From positions 1 through 45,328 of the forward strand of contig CAMSTM010000007.1 of assembly GCA_947063675.1 (NCBI GenBank): 45,328 nucleotides of DNA. Direction: 5' to 3'. The position numbers and the translations under genes are program-made. Below, piece by piece: positions 2,663 through 45,328 of this stretch. Origin of the DNA: an uncultured Lachnospiraceae bacterium (lineage in GTDB: Bacteria; Bacillota; Clostridia; Lachnospirales; Lachnospiraceae). Within the stretch, counting starts at the first letter, position 1. Each line of letters opens with the position of its first letter. The notes under the pieces are model-generated. The model did not search any database, was not told where the DNA came from, and saw nothing but the letters and a program-made list of their open reading frames with translations.

Positions 2663-3604
2663 ATGAAAACAAAATTGTCGTCCGCGGAGTTTTATTTTTA
2701 TACCTGCCTTGCTTTTCTGATTACCGCCGTTATTCTTCTCTTTCCGGCAGACTGTCTGTCCTTTGCCTTAAAAGGGCTCAACCTCTGGTTTGAGAGGATG
2801 ATACCCACCCTCTTTCCTTTTATGGTTTTATCCGGCATCATTATCCGTATGGATTTGACGGACGCCTTCGTAAAAATATTAAATCCCATTCTCGGCGGGC
2901 TGTTCCGAATAAGGCCCGCCTGCGTGTACGGAATGCTGGTGGGATTTTTGTGCGGATTTCCCATGGGAGCCCATGTGGCGGCCCAGCTCTATGAGCAGGG
3001 ACAGATTTCAAAAGCGGAGGCGGCTTATCTTCTTTCCTTCTGCAACAATATCGGCCCTGTTTACTTTTTGAGCTTCGTGATGCCGGTATTGTCTCTGGAA
3101 AAGCCGGCGCCTTTTCTTTTCGGCATGTACGGGCTGCCCTTTCTCTATGGGCTGCTTCTTCGATACACCGCATTTAAAGAAGAAATCGACGCCTGTACCG
3201 GAAGAAAGCTCCCCGCCAGGGGACAGACATCCCTTTTAAGCGCCATGGATGAATCCGTTTTCAGCGCCCTTTCGGGAATTGCCAGACTGGGCGGATATAT
3301 GGTCTTTTTTAACCTTCTGTTTATTCTTCCTGTGCTGGCAGCCGGAATTTTTTCTCTCAGTGAAAAGACTGCCGCGCTTTTTACAGGCGGCGCCTCCTGC
3401 CTTCTGGAAATCACCGGCGGCATTCATCTGGTGGGAAACAGCGCTCCTTATCTGGTGCTGTGCATTCTTCCCTTCGGCGGTCTCTCCTGCATCGCCCAGA
3501 CCTACAGCATGATAAAAAACACAGACCTTTCCATCACGGAATATGTAATGCACAAAATGATTCTCACCGCCGCCACTGTGCTGTACTACCTGTTGATTTT
3601 ATAG
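2663..3604 (+). CDS. ylbJ: Sporulation integral membrane protein, YlbJ-like
   Basis: 313 aa, mostly hydrophobic with about eight membrane segments. The nucleoside-recognition/Gate-type core is visible: MIPTLFPFMVLSGI, then GFLCGFPMGAHVAAQLY, then FCNNIGPVYFLSFV. The FPxG and CNNxGP motifs are typical of YlbJ, a membrane protein needed for formation of heat-resistant spores. The gene lies close to coaD and rsmD, the same neighbourhood ylbJ has in other Firmicutes, but on the opposite strand. An AAAAGGG ribosome site lies about 12 nt before the ATG. SpmA/SpmB share this fold, so the exact orthology is likely rather than certain. Confidence 0.8.
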   Translation: MKTKLSSAEFYFYTCLAFLITAVILLFPADCLSFALKGLNLWFERMIPTLFPFMVLSGIIIRMDLTDAFVKILNPILGGLFRIRPACVYGMLVGFLCGFPMGAHVAAQLYEQGQISKAEAAYLLSFCNNIGPVYFLSFVMPVLSLEKPAPFLFGMYGLPFLYGLLLRYTAFKEEIDACTGRKLPARGQTSLLSAMDESVFSALSGIARLGGYMVFFNLLFILPVLAAGIFSLSEKTAALFTGGASCLLEITGGIHLVGNSAPYLVLCILPFGGLSCIAQTYSMIKNTDLSITEYVMHKMILTAATVLYYLLIL

Positions 3605-15214: not shown

Positions 15215-15385
15215 ACTTTGAAAATCCCGGACGGCGGCGGACAGACTGCATGCCTGCATGCATGTCTGTTCCGACATTGGACGGGCAAGCCTGTATGAGC
15301 AAGGAGGGCTGTTGCCCGGATTGCGAATACTGGCGGCAGCTGCGGGAGCCGAAGGCGAAGCAGCTGGCTTTCAAACAAACATACC

Positions 15386-35303: not shown

Positions 35304-36569
35304 TCAGTTAAGCCGGCACGGGCAGGCAATTTTTCCAAGAGCCGCGCTTGCCGCGGCAACTGCCGGACTGGCCAGATAAATCTCCGAATTCACATGTCCC
35401 ATACGTCCTACAAAGTTGCGGTTGGTTGTGGAGACGCATCTCTCCCCCTCCGCAAGGATTCCCATATAACCGCCAAGGCAGGGACCGCAGGTAGGGGTGC
35501 TCACAACCGCTCCCGCTTCGATAAATATTTTAAGGAGCCCTTCCTCCATGGCCTGCATATAAATAGCCTGGGTTGCCGGAATCACGATACAGCGCATTCC
35601 CTTCGCCACATGTCTGCCTTTCAAAATCTGTGCGGCAGTCCGCATGTCGTCGATTCTTCCGTTAGTGCAGGAACCGATAACCACCTGGTCGATTTTGATA
35701 TCCTCTTTTATCTCGTCAATGGTCTTTGTATTTTCGGGAAGATGGGGAAATGCAACGGTGGGACGAAGGCTGCTTAAATCGATGGTGTATTCCTCGTCGT
35801 AAACCGCATCCTCGTCCGCCTCATAAACGGTATATTCCTTTTGGGAATGTTCTTTCATGTAAGCGATTGCCAAATCGTCCACCGGGAAAATCCCGTTCTT
35901 TCCGCCGGCCTCGATAGCCATGTTGGCAATTGTAAAACGGTCGTCCATAGAAAGATTCTTAATTCCGTCGCCTGTAAATTCCATGGATTTATATAAAGCG
36001 CCGTCCACGCCAATCATACCGATGATATGTAAAATAACGTCCTTTCCGCTTACCCACTCTGCCGGTTTTCCGGTGAGGTTAAATTTGATGGCGGCGGGCA
36101 CCTTGAACCATGCCTTGCCGGTAGCCATACCGGCGGCCATATCCGTGCTTCCCACTCCCGTGGAAAAAGCTCCCAGCGCGCCGTAGGTGCAGGTGTGGGA
36201 ATCCGCGCCGATAATCACATCTCCTGCCACTGTCAGCCCTTTTTCGGGAAGCAGCGCATGTTCAATTCCCATTTCACCGACTTCAAAATAATTGGTAATC
36301 TGGTTGCGGTATGAGAACTCACGCACACATTTGCAATGCTCCGCCGACTTAATATCCTTATTGGGGACAAAGTGGTCCGGCACAAGGGCGATTTTATCCC
36401 TGTCAAAGACTCCGTCCACCTTCATTTTTTCCATTTCCTTAATGGCGACAGGACTTGTGATGTCATTGCCCAGCACCAAATCCAAATCCGCTTCAATCAG
36501 CTGTCCGGCTTCCACCTTATTAAGGCCCGCGTGAGCCGCCAGTATTTTCTGAGTCATTGTCATTCCCAT
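35304..36569 (-). CDS. leuC: 3-isopropylmalate dehydratase large subunit LeuC
   Basis: 421 aa, the short aconitase-family type. It carries the 4Fe-4S cluster; ligand cysteines are in [14 protein letters not shown] and [35 protein letters not shown], split around the DSHT motif, and RNFVGRMGH complete the active site. An ideal GGAGG lies 9 nt before the first ATG. A terminator separates it from ilvC upstream, and a hairpin lies in its leader. leuA and leuB are not in this window. Confidence 0.96.
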
Positions 36570-36613
36570 AAATCATATCCTCCAAACATTTTTAATCGGG
36601 CGAAAAACCTCTC

Positions 36614-36646
36614 TCTGCTATGGCGGACATATACCGCGTCAGCAGA
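36614..36646 (-). promoter_or_regulatory. Hairpin in the leuC leader
   Basis: TCTGCT (36614-36619) pairs with AGCAGA (36641-36646), and GCGG/CCGC (36623-36626, 36634-36637) pair inside. On minus it is followed 6 nt later by five T (36607-36603), 33 nt before the leuC ATG. This could be a weak attenuator. No T-box motif is seen. Confidence 0.4.
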
Positions 36647-36670
36647 AGCTGTTCCCCGCGCCGCATACAT

Positions 36671-36697
36671 AAAAAGCGGCAAATGTTGTTCTGCCGC
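36671..36697 (-). terminator. Intrinsic terminator after ilvC
   Basis: On minus, GCGGCA (36697-36692) pairs with TGCCGC (36681-36676) and five T follow (36675-36671). It starts 12 nt past the ilvC stop. It makes the leuCD genes at least partly separate from ilv. Confidence 0.65.
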
Positions 36698-36709
36698 CTT
36701 TTGTCCTGT

Positions 36710-37759
<1,050 letters not shown>

Positions 37760-37827
37760 TTAACCTCTTTTCTTATATTAAACAGATTTCTCAATCCTGA
37801 AATCCGATAATATTGCCGACCTGCCTT

Positions 37828-38325
37828 CTACAGATAAGTAACGTTTTCCGACCCCCGAAGAAGCCCCGCAATTCCGGTTCTCGCAACCTCCAGTATTTCG
37901 TAGCCTTCCAGAAGGCTGATAAAGGCGTCAAGCTTCGCCTGATTTCCGGTAAGCTCGATTATTAAGCTGTCAAAAGCAACATCAATGATTTTCGCCCGGA
38001 AAATATCCGCGACGGCTATGATTCCCTGCCTCTGTTCGCTGTTTGCCCGAACCTTGATAAGCGCCAGTTCCCGGTAGACGCTGCTCTCCGGCTTAAGCTC
38101 CTTGATATCCCGAACATCCACCAGCTTGGCCACCTGCTTTTCTATCTGGTCGAGAACTTCATCCTCGCCTGACGCCGTAATGGTAATCCGCGTGTAGCGG
38201 GGGTCTCCGATGACGCCTGCGGTAATGCTTTCGATATTGTAGCCTCTCCTTGAGAAAAGCCCTGAAATCCGGCTTAAAGTACCGGCATTGTTATCTACCA
38301 GAAGTTGAAATACTTTTCTTTGCAA
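37828..38325 (-). CDS. ilvN: Acetolactate synthase regulatory subunit, distal paralog
   Basis: 165 aa. An ACT-domain regulatory subunit that binds feedback amino acids and stimulates the catalytic subunit. The ACT start is VFQLLVDNNAGTLSRISGLFSRRGYNIES, split at the family GxLxRxxxLFxRRGxNI core, and the C-terminal ALSS-C domain is YRELALIKVRANSEQR to EVARTGIAGLLRG. It starts with TTG at 38325, with a perfect AGGAGG 8 nt upstream; no in-frame ATG is near. It is closer to standard IlvH than the proximal copy. Both follow one ilvB. Confidence 0.94.
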   Translation of the reverse strand: MQRKVFQLLVDNNAGTLSRISGLFSRRGYNIESITAGVIGDPRYTRITITASGEDEVLDQIEKQVAKLVDVRDIKELKPESSVYRELALIKVRANSEQRQGIIAVADIFRAKIIDVAFDSLIIELTGNQAKLDAFISLLEGYEILEVARTGIAGLLRGSENVTYL

Positions 38326-38423
38326 TTGCCCATCCTCCTAACATTCGAAAAATATTTTATCAATATCCCCCGAAAAAGTCAACTTACATAATTAACTATA
38401 AAATTGATTTATTTTGTTCTTAC

Positions 38424-38909
38424 TTATTCTGTCTCATTGCATTTCTGCAAAGCCAGGGTGCCGGTGCGGGCAACCTCCACGATGCTGATACTCTTAAACA
38501 TACCGATAAAGAGCTGAATCCGCTCCGGGATGTCGCACATCTGGATGAGCATCATGTTTTTTGACATATCCACAATCCTGGCGCCCATGATTTCACAGAC
38601 CTCCATGATATCCCGCCGGTTGGATTTGTTGTATTTTACTTTCATGAGAAGAAGTTCTCTGCTGATGCTGCTCATCTCGTCAAAGGTTTTTACCTTAATC
38701 ACGTCAAGCTTTTTGTTAAGCTGCTTTTCGATTTGCTCGATAGTGCGCTTATCTCCGCTGCTTACAATCGTCATACAGGAAACGGCGGAGTCGTCTGTCT
38801 CTCCCACCGCAAGGGAGTCAATGTTAAAGCATCTCCTGGAAAAGAGTCCTGCCACCTTACAGAGCACGCCGGAACGGTTTTCCACCAGTACGGAATAGAT
38901 TTTCTTCAT
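38424..38909 (-). CDS. ilvN: Acetolactate synthase regulatory subunit, proximal paralog
   Basis: 161 aa. Same ACT plus C-terminal layout as its neighbour: YSVLVENRSGVLCKVAGLFS, RRCFNIDSLAVGETDD and SRELLLMKVKYNKSNRRDIM, ending EVARTGTLALQKCNETE. It has Cys where the distal copy has Gly in the RRGYNI motif (RRCFNI), and is clearly diverged. It starts 13 nt after ilvB with AGGAGG 9 nt before the ATG; a GTG two codons upstream is an option. Two regulatory subunits beside one catalytic gene is uncommon. Confidence 0.93.
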   Translation of the reverse strand: MKKIYSVLVENRSGVLCKVAGLFSRRCFNIDSLAVGETDDSAVSCMTIVSSGDKRTIEQIEKQLNKKLDVIKVKTFDEMSSISRELLLMKVKYNKSNRRDIMEVCEIMGARIVDMSKNMMLIQMCDIPERIQLFIGMFKSISIVEVARTGTLALQKCNETE

Positions 38910-38922
38910 AACCACTCACCTC

Positions 38923-40539
38923 CTATTTCACCAAATCCATAGGATTAATGATGCATTCAAGCAGCACCGATTCATCCTTTTCCAGAAACTCATCCAAAAT
39001 ATTCTCAGCCTTATCCATATTCTCAAGGCGGAGAAATTTCATATCGTAGGCAGAGGAAAGCTTCTCCAAATCCGGGCTTCCCGACAAATCCACCACAGAG
39101 TAATTGTCCTTATAAGTGTAATGCTGAAACTCCCGCACCATCCCCAGATAATTGTTCTTAAGGACTATGATTTTCACAGGAATATTGTGCTGGCGCATGG
39201 TGGCAAGCTCCATCATAGACATCTGGAAAGAGCCGTCCCCGCAGACGGCAATCACCTGCCTGCGTTTATCCGCCAGCTTTGCGCCCATGGCGGCCGGAAT
39301 CGAATACCCCATGGTCCCCATTCCGCCGGAGGTCAGAAATCTGCCCTTTTTCACCACGTGATATCCGCAGGACCAGATTTGGTTCTGCCCCACATCGGCG
39401 ACATAGACGCCGTCCTCCTCCATCTTATCGGAAAGCATGGTGATAAATTTTGCCGGGTCAACGTAGGCCGGGTCAGGATTTCTTTTCGGTGCCATGGTCT
39501 GTCTGTAGCCCTTAAGCGTCGATACCCAGTCTTCGCATTTACAGGAAAACTCCTGGGCAAGAAGGTCCTCAAAAATATGTCTGGCGTCGCCTACAAGGGG
39601 AATCGTGGGACCTACGTTCTTGCCGATTTCCGCCGGGTCAACATCCATATGTATCAGTACTTTATTATTCATAATCAAATCCGGCTGGTTCACGGCGCGG
39701 TCAGCAACTCTCGCCCCCACCATCAGCAAAAGGTCGGATTCGTTCATGGCACGGTTGGCATAAGCTTTTCCGTTATTGCCCACCATACCGAAATACAACG
39801 GGTGCCTTGTGGGCATAACGCCGATTCCCATCATGGTGGAAACCACAGGTATCTGCTTTTTTTCGGCAAAGGCTAAAAGCTCTGCTTCCGCGCCGGACAA
39901 AAGTACGCCGCCCCCCGCGCAAATCAGCGGACGACGGGCCTTTTCAAGCTCCGCCACCACCTTTTTTATCTGTACGATATTGCCTTTTACCGTGGGTTTG
40001 TAGGTTCGCATGAACACCGTTTCCGGGTATGAAAACTTCTTTATCTCCGCATTTTGAATATCGCAGGGAACGTCAATTAAAACCGGCCCACGTCTTCCTG
40101 TGTTTGCAATGTGGAACGCCTCCTTGAAAATGCGGGGAATGTCGTTTACATCCTTTACCAGATAGCTGTATTTCACAAAGGATTCCGCCGCTCCCGTAAT
40201 ATCCGCCTCCTGGAACACGTCGCTGCCGATTAATTCCGAATTTACCTGCCCCGTGATGCAGATAAGGGGAATGCTGTCCGCAAAAGCCGTGGCGATTCCC
40301 GTAAGTACGTTGGTTGCCCCCGGACCTGAGGTCACGGCGCACACACCCACCTTGCCGGATACCCTGAAAAAGCCGCTGGCCGCATGAGCCGCATTCTGCT
40401 CTGTCCTTATCAGGATTGTTTCAACAGGCGACGAAAGAATACTGTTGTAAAACGGGCAGATAGCCACGCCCGGGTAGCCAAACACATATTCCACGCCTTC
40501 CTCTTCCAAACACTTTATAATTGCATCTGCTCCTGTCAT
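38923..40539 (-). CDS. ilvB: Acetolactate synthase catalytic subunit IlvB
   Basis: 538 aa. A thiamine-diphosphate enzyme that joins two pyruvates, or pyruvate and 2-oxobutyrate, the first common step of branched-chain amino acid synthesis. The catalytic Glu47 is in IRTEQNAAHAASGF; VTSGPGATNVLTGIATA follows. The FAD/central region reads GIGVMPTRHPLYFGMVGNNG, and the ThDP-Mg motif is VCGDGSFQMSMMELATMRQ to LKNNYLGMVREFQ. FGYPGVAICPFYN at the N-terminus and the full length support a working anabolic enzyme. The ATG at 40539 has AAAGGA 7 nt away; an upstream frame extension lacks a site. It follows metH by 80 nt. Confidence 0.95.
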   Translation of the reverse strand: MTGADAIIKCLEEEGVEYVFGYPGVAICPFYNSILSSPVETILIRTEQNAAHAASGFFRVSGKVGVCAVTSGPGATNVLTGIATAFADSIPLICITGQVNSELIGSDVFQEADITGAAESFVKYSYLVKDVNDIPRIFKEAFHIANTGRRGPVLIDVPCDIQNAEIKKFSYPETVFMRTYKPTVKGNIVQIKKVVAELEKARRPLICAGGGVLLSGAEAELLAFAEKKQIPVVSTMMGIGVMPTRHPLYFGMVGNNGKAYANRAMNESDLLLMVGARVADRAVNQPDLIMNNKVLIHMDVDPAEIGKNVGPTIPLVGDARHIFEDLLAQEFSCKCEDWVSTLKGYRQTMAPKRNPDPAYVDPAKFITMLSDKMEEDGVYVADVGQNQIWSCGYHVVKKGRFLTSGGMGTMGYSIPAAMGAKLADKRRQVIAVCGDGSFQMSMMELATMRQHNIPVKIIVLKNNYLGMVREFQHYTYKDNYSVVDLSGSPDLEKLSSAYDMKFLRLENMDKAENILDEFLEKDESVLLECIINPMDLVK

Positions 40540-40563
40540 TTTCTCATCCTTTCTATGATAATG

Positions 40564-40581
40564 TTGCAGGATTTCCTGCAA
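40564..40581. promoter_or_regulatory. Perfect inverted repeat upstream of ilvB
   Basis: TTGCAGG (40564-40570) and CCTGCAA (40575-40581) form a 7-bp stem with a 4-nt centre, 24 nt before the ilvB ATG. The half-site TGCAGGA recurs once more just upstream on minus. It could be an operator or a leader hairpin. No T-box or other riboswitch motif is visible here. Confidence 0.45.
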
Positions 40582-40619
40582 ATCTTATATTTCTCCTGCA
40601 TTTAACAGCCGCCAGGCGC

Positions 40620-43220
40620 TCATTGCATTCCAAGAAGCTCTTTTGCTACCCTGACAGCGTCCGCCGCATCCTTCGAATATCCGTCGGCGCCGATTTCTCT
40701 CGCGTATTCGGGAGTTATCACCGCGCCGCCAATCATTATTTTTATATCGGGCTGCTCCTGCCTTACATAGTCCACCACCCGCTTCATCTCCTGCATGGTC
40801 GTGGTCATAAGGGCGGACAGCGCGATAATCTTTGCGCGGCGCTTTATCGCCTCCCCGGCAATCACTTCCCTGGGAACATCCTTTCCCAAATCAACCACCT
40901 GAAAACCGTGATTTTTCAGCATCAGCGCCACCAGATTTTTTCCGATATCATGAATATCGCCCTCCACTGTGGCGATAACCACCGTGGGCATTTCTTCTCC
41001 GGCTTTTCCCATGGCAAGAAAAGGCTCTAAATATTCAATGGAAAGCTTCATAGCTTCCGCGCTTGCGATAAGCTGGGGAAGGAAATATTTCCCTTTGTCA
41101 AACAAATCCCCTACCTCGCCAATGGCGGGAAGAAGCAGTTCGTTTAAGATAAAAGCCGCCTCCTGACCGCTTTCCACCGCGGCTTTTGTATGCTCTTTTA
41201 TCTGCTTCCTGTTGCCTTTCATTACATCCTGATAAATCTGATTGCCGGATGGGAGGTTTTCCTTCCCGTCCCCTGCCGCATTTGAAGATGCGCTCAGGGC
41301 TGCGTCTTTTGTCCCGGCAAAAGCTATCTCCCCGGCTGCCGAAGCCCCTCCGCCAGATACAATATTTCCGGCTGCCGAAGCTCCTTTGGCCGGTATAGCT
41401 GCCGCCGGAATTCCCGGCTGATAATCTTTCATTCTCTCAATATAGCGGATATCCCCGCCCTCTTTATTCATCAGAAGGTCGCTGGCAAAAGCCGTGTTCA
41501 CCAAAAGCTCCTGGGAGGGATTGGCTATGGCCATGGTAAGCCCGGCCTGAATCGCCATGGTAAGGAATGCGGTGTTTACGAAGCTCCTTTCAGGCAGCCC
41601 GAAAGAAATATTTGACAGCCCGCAGATGGTAGCAAGGCCTTTGTCTTTACAGTAGCGAATCACTTCAAGTACCTCGCCTGCCGCTCCCGGATTTACGCCT
41701 GCCGTGGTCACCAGGCCGTCCACCACAATATCTTCCTTTGTGAGACCGATTTCAAATGCCATACGGCTGATTTTATCAATAATTTCAATTTTTTCTTCCA
41801 GGCTCTCCGGCAGTCCCTTGTCGGAAAGAGGAAGGAGAATAAACATGGCTCCATACTTTTTTGCCAGAGGAAGAAGCTTTTTGAGCTTTTCCGTTTCCCC
41901 GGAAATGGAGTTAATCAGCGCCCGTCCGGGATATCTTCGAAGAGCCGCCTCAATCACATCCACATGACTGGAATCAATGGCAAGGGGAAGGTTGGAGGCT
42001 ACCGTGACCTCGTCCAGCGCTTTCAGCATCATTTCCTTCTCGTCAATGCCGCTCATTCCCATATTGATGTCCAGAAGCGCCGCGCCGTTTTCCTCCTGTT
42101 CTTCCGCAAAGGACAGAACCATATCCAGCCGGCCTTCCCGCAGCTCGTTCTGAAGCTTTTTTTTGCCCGTAGGATTAATGCGTTCCCCTACAATCATAAA
42201 TGGGGAATCCAGTCCGAAAGCGACCGTTTTGCGCTCGCCGGAAAGATAGCGCATTCCCTGCCTGCATTGTGAGCCGGGCGTCCGTGCCGTGCCTTTTTGG
42301 CAGTATTCCTTTGAACTGTCCCCTGGCATAAGGTCAGCTTCCGCTCCGCTTCGCATCGCCTTTACCAGCTTTTCAATATATTCCGGCGTGGTGCCGCAGC
42401 AGCCGCCTAAAATACCCGCCCCGGCCTTTGCCAGCTTAATCATCTCAGCGGCAAAAACATCGGCGCTCATATCATAAACCGTTTCTCCCCGGCTGTTTAA
42501 TCCGGGCATCCCCGCATTGGGTTTGGCAATAACCGGAATCGCCGCCGCACCGGCCATGGCTTCTATGAGACCGGCCATTCTATCGGGACCGGTGGAGCAG
42601 TTGGCGCCCACAGCGCATACGCCCAGCTTTTCAAGTGTCACAGCCGCTGTCACTCCGTCCGTTCCGTAAAGGGTCCGCCCGTCCGCCTCAAAGGTAAGAC
42701 TTGCCATCACAGGCAGTCCGCAGACCTCCTTTGCCGCAATAACCGCCGCCCGGGTTTCCTGAAGGCTCATCATGGTCTCCACCACCAAAAGGTCGGCTCC
42801 GGCGTCGGCAAGCAGCTTAATCTGCTCCTTATAAACACAGATAAGCTCCTCAAAATCCAGATTCCCCATGGGAAAAAGCTGTCGGCCTGTCATGGTGATA
42901 TCTCCGGCTACAAGCGCTTTTCCGTCCGCCGCTTCCTTTGAAAGCGCAACCAGCCTGTGATTAATTTCTTCTATTCTGTCCTCAAGGCCGTACTCCGCAA
43001 GTTTGATGCGGTTGGCCGTAAAGGTCGGCGCATAGATAATATTGCTTCCGGCCTCCACATACTCCCTCTGCAGACCTGTAAAAATATCCGGGTGTTCCAA
43101 AATCCATGTCTCCGGGCATACGCCGGCCGGCATTCCCCGCTTTATCAGATTGGAGCCTGTCGCCCCGTCCAGAAAAATCAGTCTGTTTTCCGTAAATTTC
43201 CTGAAATCCTCTGTATTCAC
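40620..43220 (-). CDS. metH: Cobalamin-dependent methionine synthase, without reactivation domain
   Basis: 866 aa. It moves a methyl group from methyltetrahydrofolate through cobalamin to homocysteine. The homocysteine domain (1-~300) has its zinc ligands Cys208 (GANCSTG), Cys274 and Cys275 (GGCCGTTP). The pterin domain spans about 335-590 (VGERINPTGKKKL, LLDINMG, GLSNISFGLP). A Gly/Ala-rich linker at ~602-655 leads to the B12 cap and the Rossmann domain with DIHDIG (His757, lower cobalt ligand). The protein stops there: the C-terminal AdoMet-binding reactivation domain of E. coli MetH is absent, as in many Firmicutes where it is a separate protein. The start is GTG; an in-frame TGA lies 9 nt upstream. 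Confidence 0.95.
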   Translation of the reverse strand: MNTEDFRKFTENRLIFLDGATGSNLIKRGMPAGVCPETWILEHPDIFTGLQREYVEAGSNIIYAPTFTANRIKLAEYGLEDRIEEINHRLVALSKEAADGKALVAGDITMTGRQLFPMGNLDFEELICVYKEQIKLLADAGADLLVVETMMSLQETRAAVIAAKEVCGLPVMASLTFEADGRTLYGTDGVTAAVTLEKLGVCAVGANCSTGPDRMAGLIEAMAGAAAIPVIAKPNAGMPGLNSRGETVYDMSADVFAAEMIKLAKAGAGILGGCCGTTPEYIEKLVKAMRSGAEADLMPGDSSKEYCQKGTARTPGSQCRQGMRYLSGERKTVAFGLDSPFMIVGERINPTGKKKLQNELREGRLDMVLSFAEEQEENGAALLDINMGMSGIDEKEMMLKALDEVTVASNLPLAIDSSHVDVIEAALRRYPGRALINSISGETEKLKKLLPLAKKYGAMFILLPLSDKGLPESLEEKIEIIDKISRMAFEIGLTKEDIVVDGLVTTAGVNPGAAGEVLEVIRYCKDKGLATICGLSNISFGLPERSFVNTAFLTMAIQAGLTMAIANPSQELLVNTAFASDLLMNKEGGDIRYIERMKDYQPGIPAAAIPAKGASAAGNIVSGGGASAAGEIAFAGTKDAALSASSNAAGDGKENLPSGNQIYQDVMKGNRKQIKEHTKAAVESGQEAAFILNELLLPAIGEVGDLFDKGKYFLPQLIASAEAMKLSIEYLEPFLAMGKAGEEMPTVVIATVEGDIHDIGKNLVALMLKNHGFQVVDLGKDVPREVIAGEAIKRRAKIIALSALMTTTMQEMKRVVDYVRQEQPDIKIMIGGAVITPEYAREIGADGYSKDAADAVRVAKELLGMQ

Positions 43221-44614: not shown

Positions 44615-45046
44615 TTATATAATTAACAATATCATTCTCACGATTTTTATCATCCACTGAACCAGAATAACCGCAATGGCGGCATACATATAGTACGGAA
44701 TATAAATTTCCTCCTGCCGTCCTCCGCCTCTTTTATGCTTCCGGTAAAAATACAGCAGCATAAAATGTATGTAGGCCACAACCCCGTAAATCACTGTGGG
44801 GTTCATCCGAAAGCTCTCTCCCAGTTCCCCGCAAAACAGGTAATAAAAGGCTCTGGTCCCTCCGCAGCCGGGGCATGGCAGGCCGCTGATTTTCTTTATG
44901 CTGCACTCGGCCAGCTCTCCATATCTGTCATAACCCTCATATGCAAACCAGAAGCCTGCAATGATAAAGGGAAGCCAGATAACCTTTCCTATCTGATAAA
45001 ACACCTCGTCGGCGCGGTATTTCCTGTTGGTTTTAATAGAATTCAT
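44615..45046 (-). CDS. DUF2752 domain membrane protein
   Basis: 143 aa. The DUF2752 signature is SGLPCPGCGGTRAFYYLFCG, with the CPxCGxTR core. Two to three membrane helices flank it (about 22-40, 82-100 and 115-140). The ATG at 45046 overlaps the upstream gene by 14 nt; a longer frame to 45100 would overlap it much more. The ribosome site is weak, which fits coupling. The role of DUF2752 proteins is not known. Confidence 0.83.
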   Translation of the reverse strand: MNSIKTNRKYRADEVFYQIGKVIWLPFIIAGFWFAYEGYDRYGELAECSIKKISGLPCPGCGGTRAFYYLFCGELGESFRMNPTVIYGVVAYIHFMLLYFYRKHKRGGGRQEEIYIPYYMYAAIAVILVQWMIKIVRMILLII

Positions 45047-45284
45047 CCATGAACCCGCGCATGAATTCTTCGTAAGCCGTTGTTCCGGTGGCAAACGCAA
45101 TAATCAGGATGATAATCCGAAACACCAGCGCAACGCCGCCTGTTGCAATACCGGCAATCGCCATTCCCTTGCCGTCATACTTAAAGCAAAGTGTGATGAC
45201 TCCCAGCACAATCGCCGCAATGGCAAGTATCGGACTGAACAAATCAAGACAGCAGCATAACAGGGAAAGAATGCCGCACACCAT
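45033..45284 (-). CDS. DUF4190-like small membrane protein, 5' end missing
   Basis: 83 codons are visible, starting MVCGILSLLCCCLDLFSPIL, with three hydrophobic segments and GKGMAIAGIATGGVALVFRI, the usual two-repeat DUF4190 pattern. Family members normally have residues before the (S/M)VCGIL motif, so the apparent Met is probably internal and the true N-terminus lies past the end of the real sequence. The last genomic base is about 45285, where adapter begins. It overlaps the DUF2752 gene by 14 nt. Confidence 0.75.
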   Translation of the reverse strand: MVCGILSLLCCCLDLFSPILAIAAIVLGVITLCFKYDGKGMAIAGIATGGVALVFRIIILIIAFATGTTAYEEFMRGFMDEFY

Positions 45285-45285
45285 C

Positions 45286-45328
45286 AGATCGGAAGAGCGT
45301 CGTGTAGGGAAAGAGTGTAGATCTCGGT
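45286..45328. other. Illumina adapter sequence left on the contig end
   Basis: From 45286 to the end (43 bases) the sequence begins AGATCGGAAGAGCGTCGTGT and ends GTAGATCTCGGT. This is the reverse complement of the Illumina universal adapter as I know it, and is not genomic. Confidence 0.97.

Follow-up and report, generated by a model that had tools for sequence, protein, structure and literature searches.

An untrimmed Illumina TruSeq adapter at the end of a draft-genome contig

The window, by which we mean the whole stretch of 45,328 nucleotides that was analysed, spans contig C7 from end to end (1-45328) in a draft assembly (G000) of 3,736,429 bases in 272 contigs, so that the contig really stops at position 45328 and was not cut there by windowing. 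On the plus strand it carries a Clostridiales-1 RNA and, on the minus strand from 35304 to 43220, a run of amino-acid synthesis genes whose enzyme names are inferred from their Pfam domains. At the right edge stand two minus-strand genes, a short overlap with another contig and a synthetic tail.

15217-15375, plus strand: Clostridiales-1 RNA (RF01699), full length, 98.9 bits (gathering score 48)
35304-36569, minus strand: aconitase family (Pfam)
36710-37729, minus strand: ketol-acid reductoisomerase (Pfam)
38923-40581, minus strand: thiamine-pyrophosphate enzyme of the acetolactate-synthase kind (Pfam)
40620-43220, minus strand: homocysteine/pterin/B12-binding protein, methionine synthase-like (Pfam)
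44615-45100, minus strand: DUF2752 protein, 61.9 bits against a cut-off of 27
45033-45284, minus strand: truncated DUF4190-like gene, last 83 residues (weak PF13828 match, and identity to the last 83 residues of a related protein, L043)
45261-45285, plus strand: last genomic bases of C7, matching exactly the final 25 bases of C192 (6338-6362, minus strand)
45285-45326, minus strand: spurious leader of 14 residues, RDLHSFPTRRSSDL, continuous with the frame of the truncated gene (open-ended reading frame 45033-45326)
45286-45328, plus strand: adapter artefact, reverse complement of the Illumina TruSeq universal adapter, first 43 of 58 bases, 43/43 identity

The last 43 bases of the window, which read AGATCGGAAGAGCGTCGTGTAGGGAAAGAGTGTAGATCTCGGT, proved in a script comparison to be identical throughout to the reverse-complemented 58-base TruSeq universal adapter from adapter base 1. 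With up to three mismatches allowed, the window has a single match to the 43-mer and none of 100 dinucleotide-preserving shuffles has any, and with uniform bases a 43-base match has a chance expectation of about 10^-21; a chance match was rejected on these two grounds. A 13-base core of the adapter, searched with up to two mismatches, was found within the window solely at 45286. Since the same search gave at least one match in 77 of the 100 shuffles, the core alone would be weak proof, and it is the full 43 bases together with the position at the contig edge that decide the call. The initial annotation had taken the last 43 bases for the reverse-complemented universal adapter, beginning exactly at the adapter junction at 45286; its coordinates are exact, and the identification is borne out both by the complete match and by 11 further contig ends that carry adapter tails of this kind.

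Across the assembly the 13-base core occurs exactly 12 times, against 0.11 occurrences expected with uniform bases, and at each of these places the adapter heads off a contig end that is no more than 50 bases away. As exact cores were searched, so that shorter or altered ends would escape, 12 is a lower bound. Tail length ranges from 21 to 49 bases, and the eleven further ends besides that of C7 (L009-L019) are included in the two groups below.

Universal-adapter tails (6): C7, C21, C155, C179, C194, C210
Index-adapter tails (6): C32, C158, C177, C181, C186, C212

Judged by eye, the tails of C194 and C210 are each one base off the universal adapter. Where an index tail passes base 34 of the index adapter, which three of them do (C32, C158 and C177), it continues in every case with TTAGGC, presumably TruSeq index 3. 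A barcode held in common, along with the presence of both adapter types, is the signature that one sequencing library would leave.

The genomic bases that precede the adapter lead into another contig. Positions 45261-45285 have one further copy in the genome, at the end of the 6362-base contig C192, where the exact overlap is 25 bases. In two separate alignments, the tail of the window and contig C192 were each compared with one 8-kb stretch of a related draft genome (G022): the alignments of the window stop at base 3454 of that stretch, their long segments being 94.1% and 93.2% identical, and C192 gives a single alignment at 97.1% from base 3431 to the end of the stretch, the two contigs thus taking up consecutive, slightly overlapping coordinates. 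The adapter core was not found in C192, nor on either strand of the 8 kb of G022, and this relative crosses the junction between the two contigs without it. These alignments indicate that the chromosome goes on from 45285 in C192 and that the adapter is absent from its continuation.

Four of the 12 adapter ends were tested for such a continuation (C7, C21, C32 and C155), and the clean picture given by C7 and C192 was repeated at none of the other three. For C21 and C32, a search of the assembly found the 20 bases preceding the adapter nowhere else. At C155, the 23 bases adjoining the adapter tail (L004, 47-69) recur at 16306-16328 of contig C68 (L078, 207-229), in the interior and more than 460 bases from the end of that contig; these common bases may represent a repeat or an assembly fork. 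The results at the three ends leave the identity of the adapter untouched, and the behaviour of the assembler is only partly understood.

The gene that runs into the contig edge was compared with the Pfam family DUF4190 (PF13828), which matches the 83-residue fragment with an E value of 0.00023 and 21.3 bits and matches two full-length relatives with 30.4 and 30.6 bits. As all of these scores fall below the curated gathering cut-off of 35 bits, the gene is DUF4190-like only, and the use of this very term in the initial annotation was fair. A search of the species genomes gave at least 31 related loci (L043-L073), seven of which were read upstream. In all seven the frame is open for a further 129 to 165 residues between the nearest upstream stop and the matching part, with a CxxC...CxxC pair of motifs in this extension, and the fragment aligns solely to the C-terminal part of these longer proteins. 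The nearest among the matches listed, L043 of Bacterium 1xD8-48 (QZDS01000043.1), encodes from its first ATG a protein of 216 residues with a zinc ribbon (PF13240, 35.6 bits, above the cut-off) and the DUF4190 match of 30.4 bits, below it. The 83 residues of the window are identical to the last 83 of this protein, whereas its first 133, including the zinc ribbon, are missing from the window because the contig ends; the part of the protein just before the break has a close counterpart, in frame, at the end of C192, whose translation ends ...GGGNIGFAIASMVCGILSL. Given these upstream extensions in the seven relatives and at the end of C192, the ATG at 45284 is most probably an internal codon and not the start of the gene. 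The gene is cut by the contig break, which upholds the earlier view that it is truncated. The adapter core is present in none of the loci L043-L073, among the matches listed. The listed TTG start of the neighbouring DUF2752 protein overlaps the end of the truncated gene, and its true start may lie further in.

The frame of the truncated gene runs on without a stop into the adapter, so that an open-ended gene call on the minus strand would gain the false leader RDLHSFPTRRSSDL, and on the plus strand an open-ended frame at 45088-45327 ends in RSEERRVGKECRSR. Apart from a single genomic nucleotide that completes the final codon of RDLHSFPTRRSSDL, both peptides are encoded by the adapter, in line with the earlier warning that gene calls on the tail bases are artefacts. 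No mention of the peptide SEERRVGKECRSR was found in the literature searched. The peptides RDLHSFPTRRSSDL and RSEERRVGKECRSR are to be discarded and positions 45286-45328 trimmed, and at least 11 further contig ends of the same assembly, this number being a lower bound, need trimming too; the significance of all this is one of data hygiene only.

These data show that the 43-base tail is synthetic TruSeq adapter, a technical artefact that recurs at contig ends and is absent from the continuation of the chromosome; for the explanation as a whole, in which we propose that it arose by read-through of short inserts, we give a probability of about 0.96. Where a library insert was shorter than the read length, sequencing would have carried on past its end into the 3' adapter; the adapter bases would have been trimmed incompletely or not at all, and the assembler would then have extended C7 past 45285 into them, the true next bases landing on C192. 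The tail is without biological function. It is conceivable that the adapter was joined instead by chimeric ligation, or by adapter-dimer joining, during library preparation, and in the contig itself this route and read-through look alike, as in both the adapter starts at its base 1 directly after genomic DNA. We nevertheless give the ligation route only a slim chance, as universal and indexed tails stand six and six at the contig ends and always point outward, a pattern to be expected when short inserts are read through from both sides, by read 1 and by read 2, and as read-through is the commoner of the two routes. That the 43 bases are real chromosomal DNA resembling an adapter, for example the end of a replicon, is practically impossible: they do stand in a deposited contig and keep the minus-strand frame open, but set against this are the vanishing chance expectation given above, the tails at 11 other ends of the same assembly, some with the library barcode, and the different sequence with which C192 and G022 continue. 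Genuine genomic sequence was accordingly rejected, given the exact adapter match and the adapter-free continuation in G022.

Adapter tails of this kind are also present in other genomes of the genus. The 30-base start of the adapter occurs in 4 of 37 genomes, that of C7 and three of the 36 others, and in these three each place is no more than 50 bases from a contig end:

L039: contig end, genome G012, contig C274
L040: contig end, genome G023, contig C20
L041: contig end, genome G006, contig C75

Up to base 33 the tail of G006 follows the single-index universal adapter; beyond it the two differ, which would fit a dual-index library. Among public records, the 43-mer has matches in 7 of 50,697 phage records (one over all 43 bases, six over 32-33) and in a single one of 72,556 plasmid records (over 29 bases), and no match was found in the 20,395 records of E. 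coli complete genomes. In the phage records MW202825.1 (6021-6053) and PQ462667.1 (7573-7605) the adapter matches of 32-33 bases fall within stretches annotated as genes, one for a hypothetical protein and one for an endonuclease, and the gene models at these places may be affected.

Comparing the tail with the Illumina TruSeq read-through left in draft assemblies, we found no difference between the two. The tail shares with it the exact adapter from base 1, the location at a contig end and the outward direction, as well as the recurrence at other contig ends of the same assembly with one barcode.
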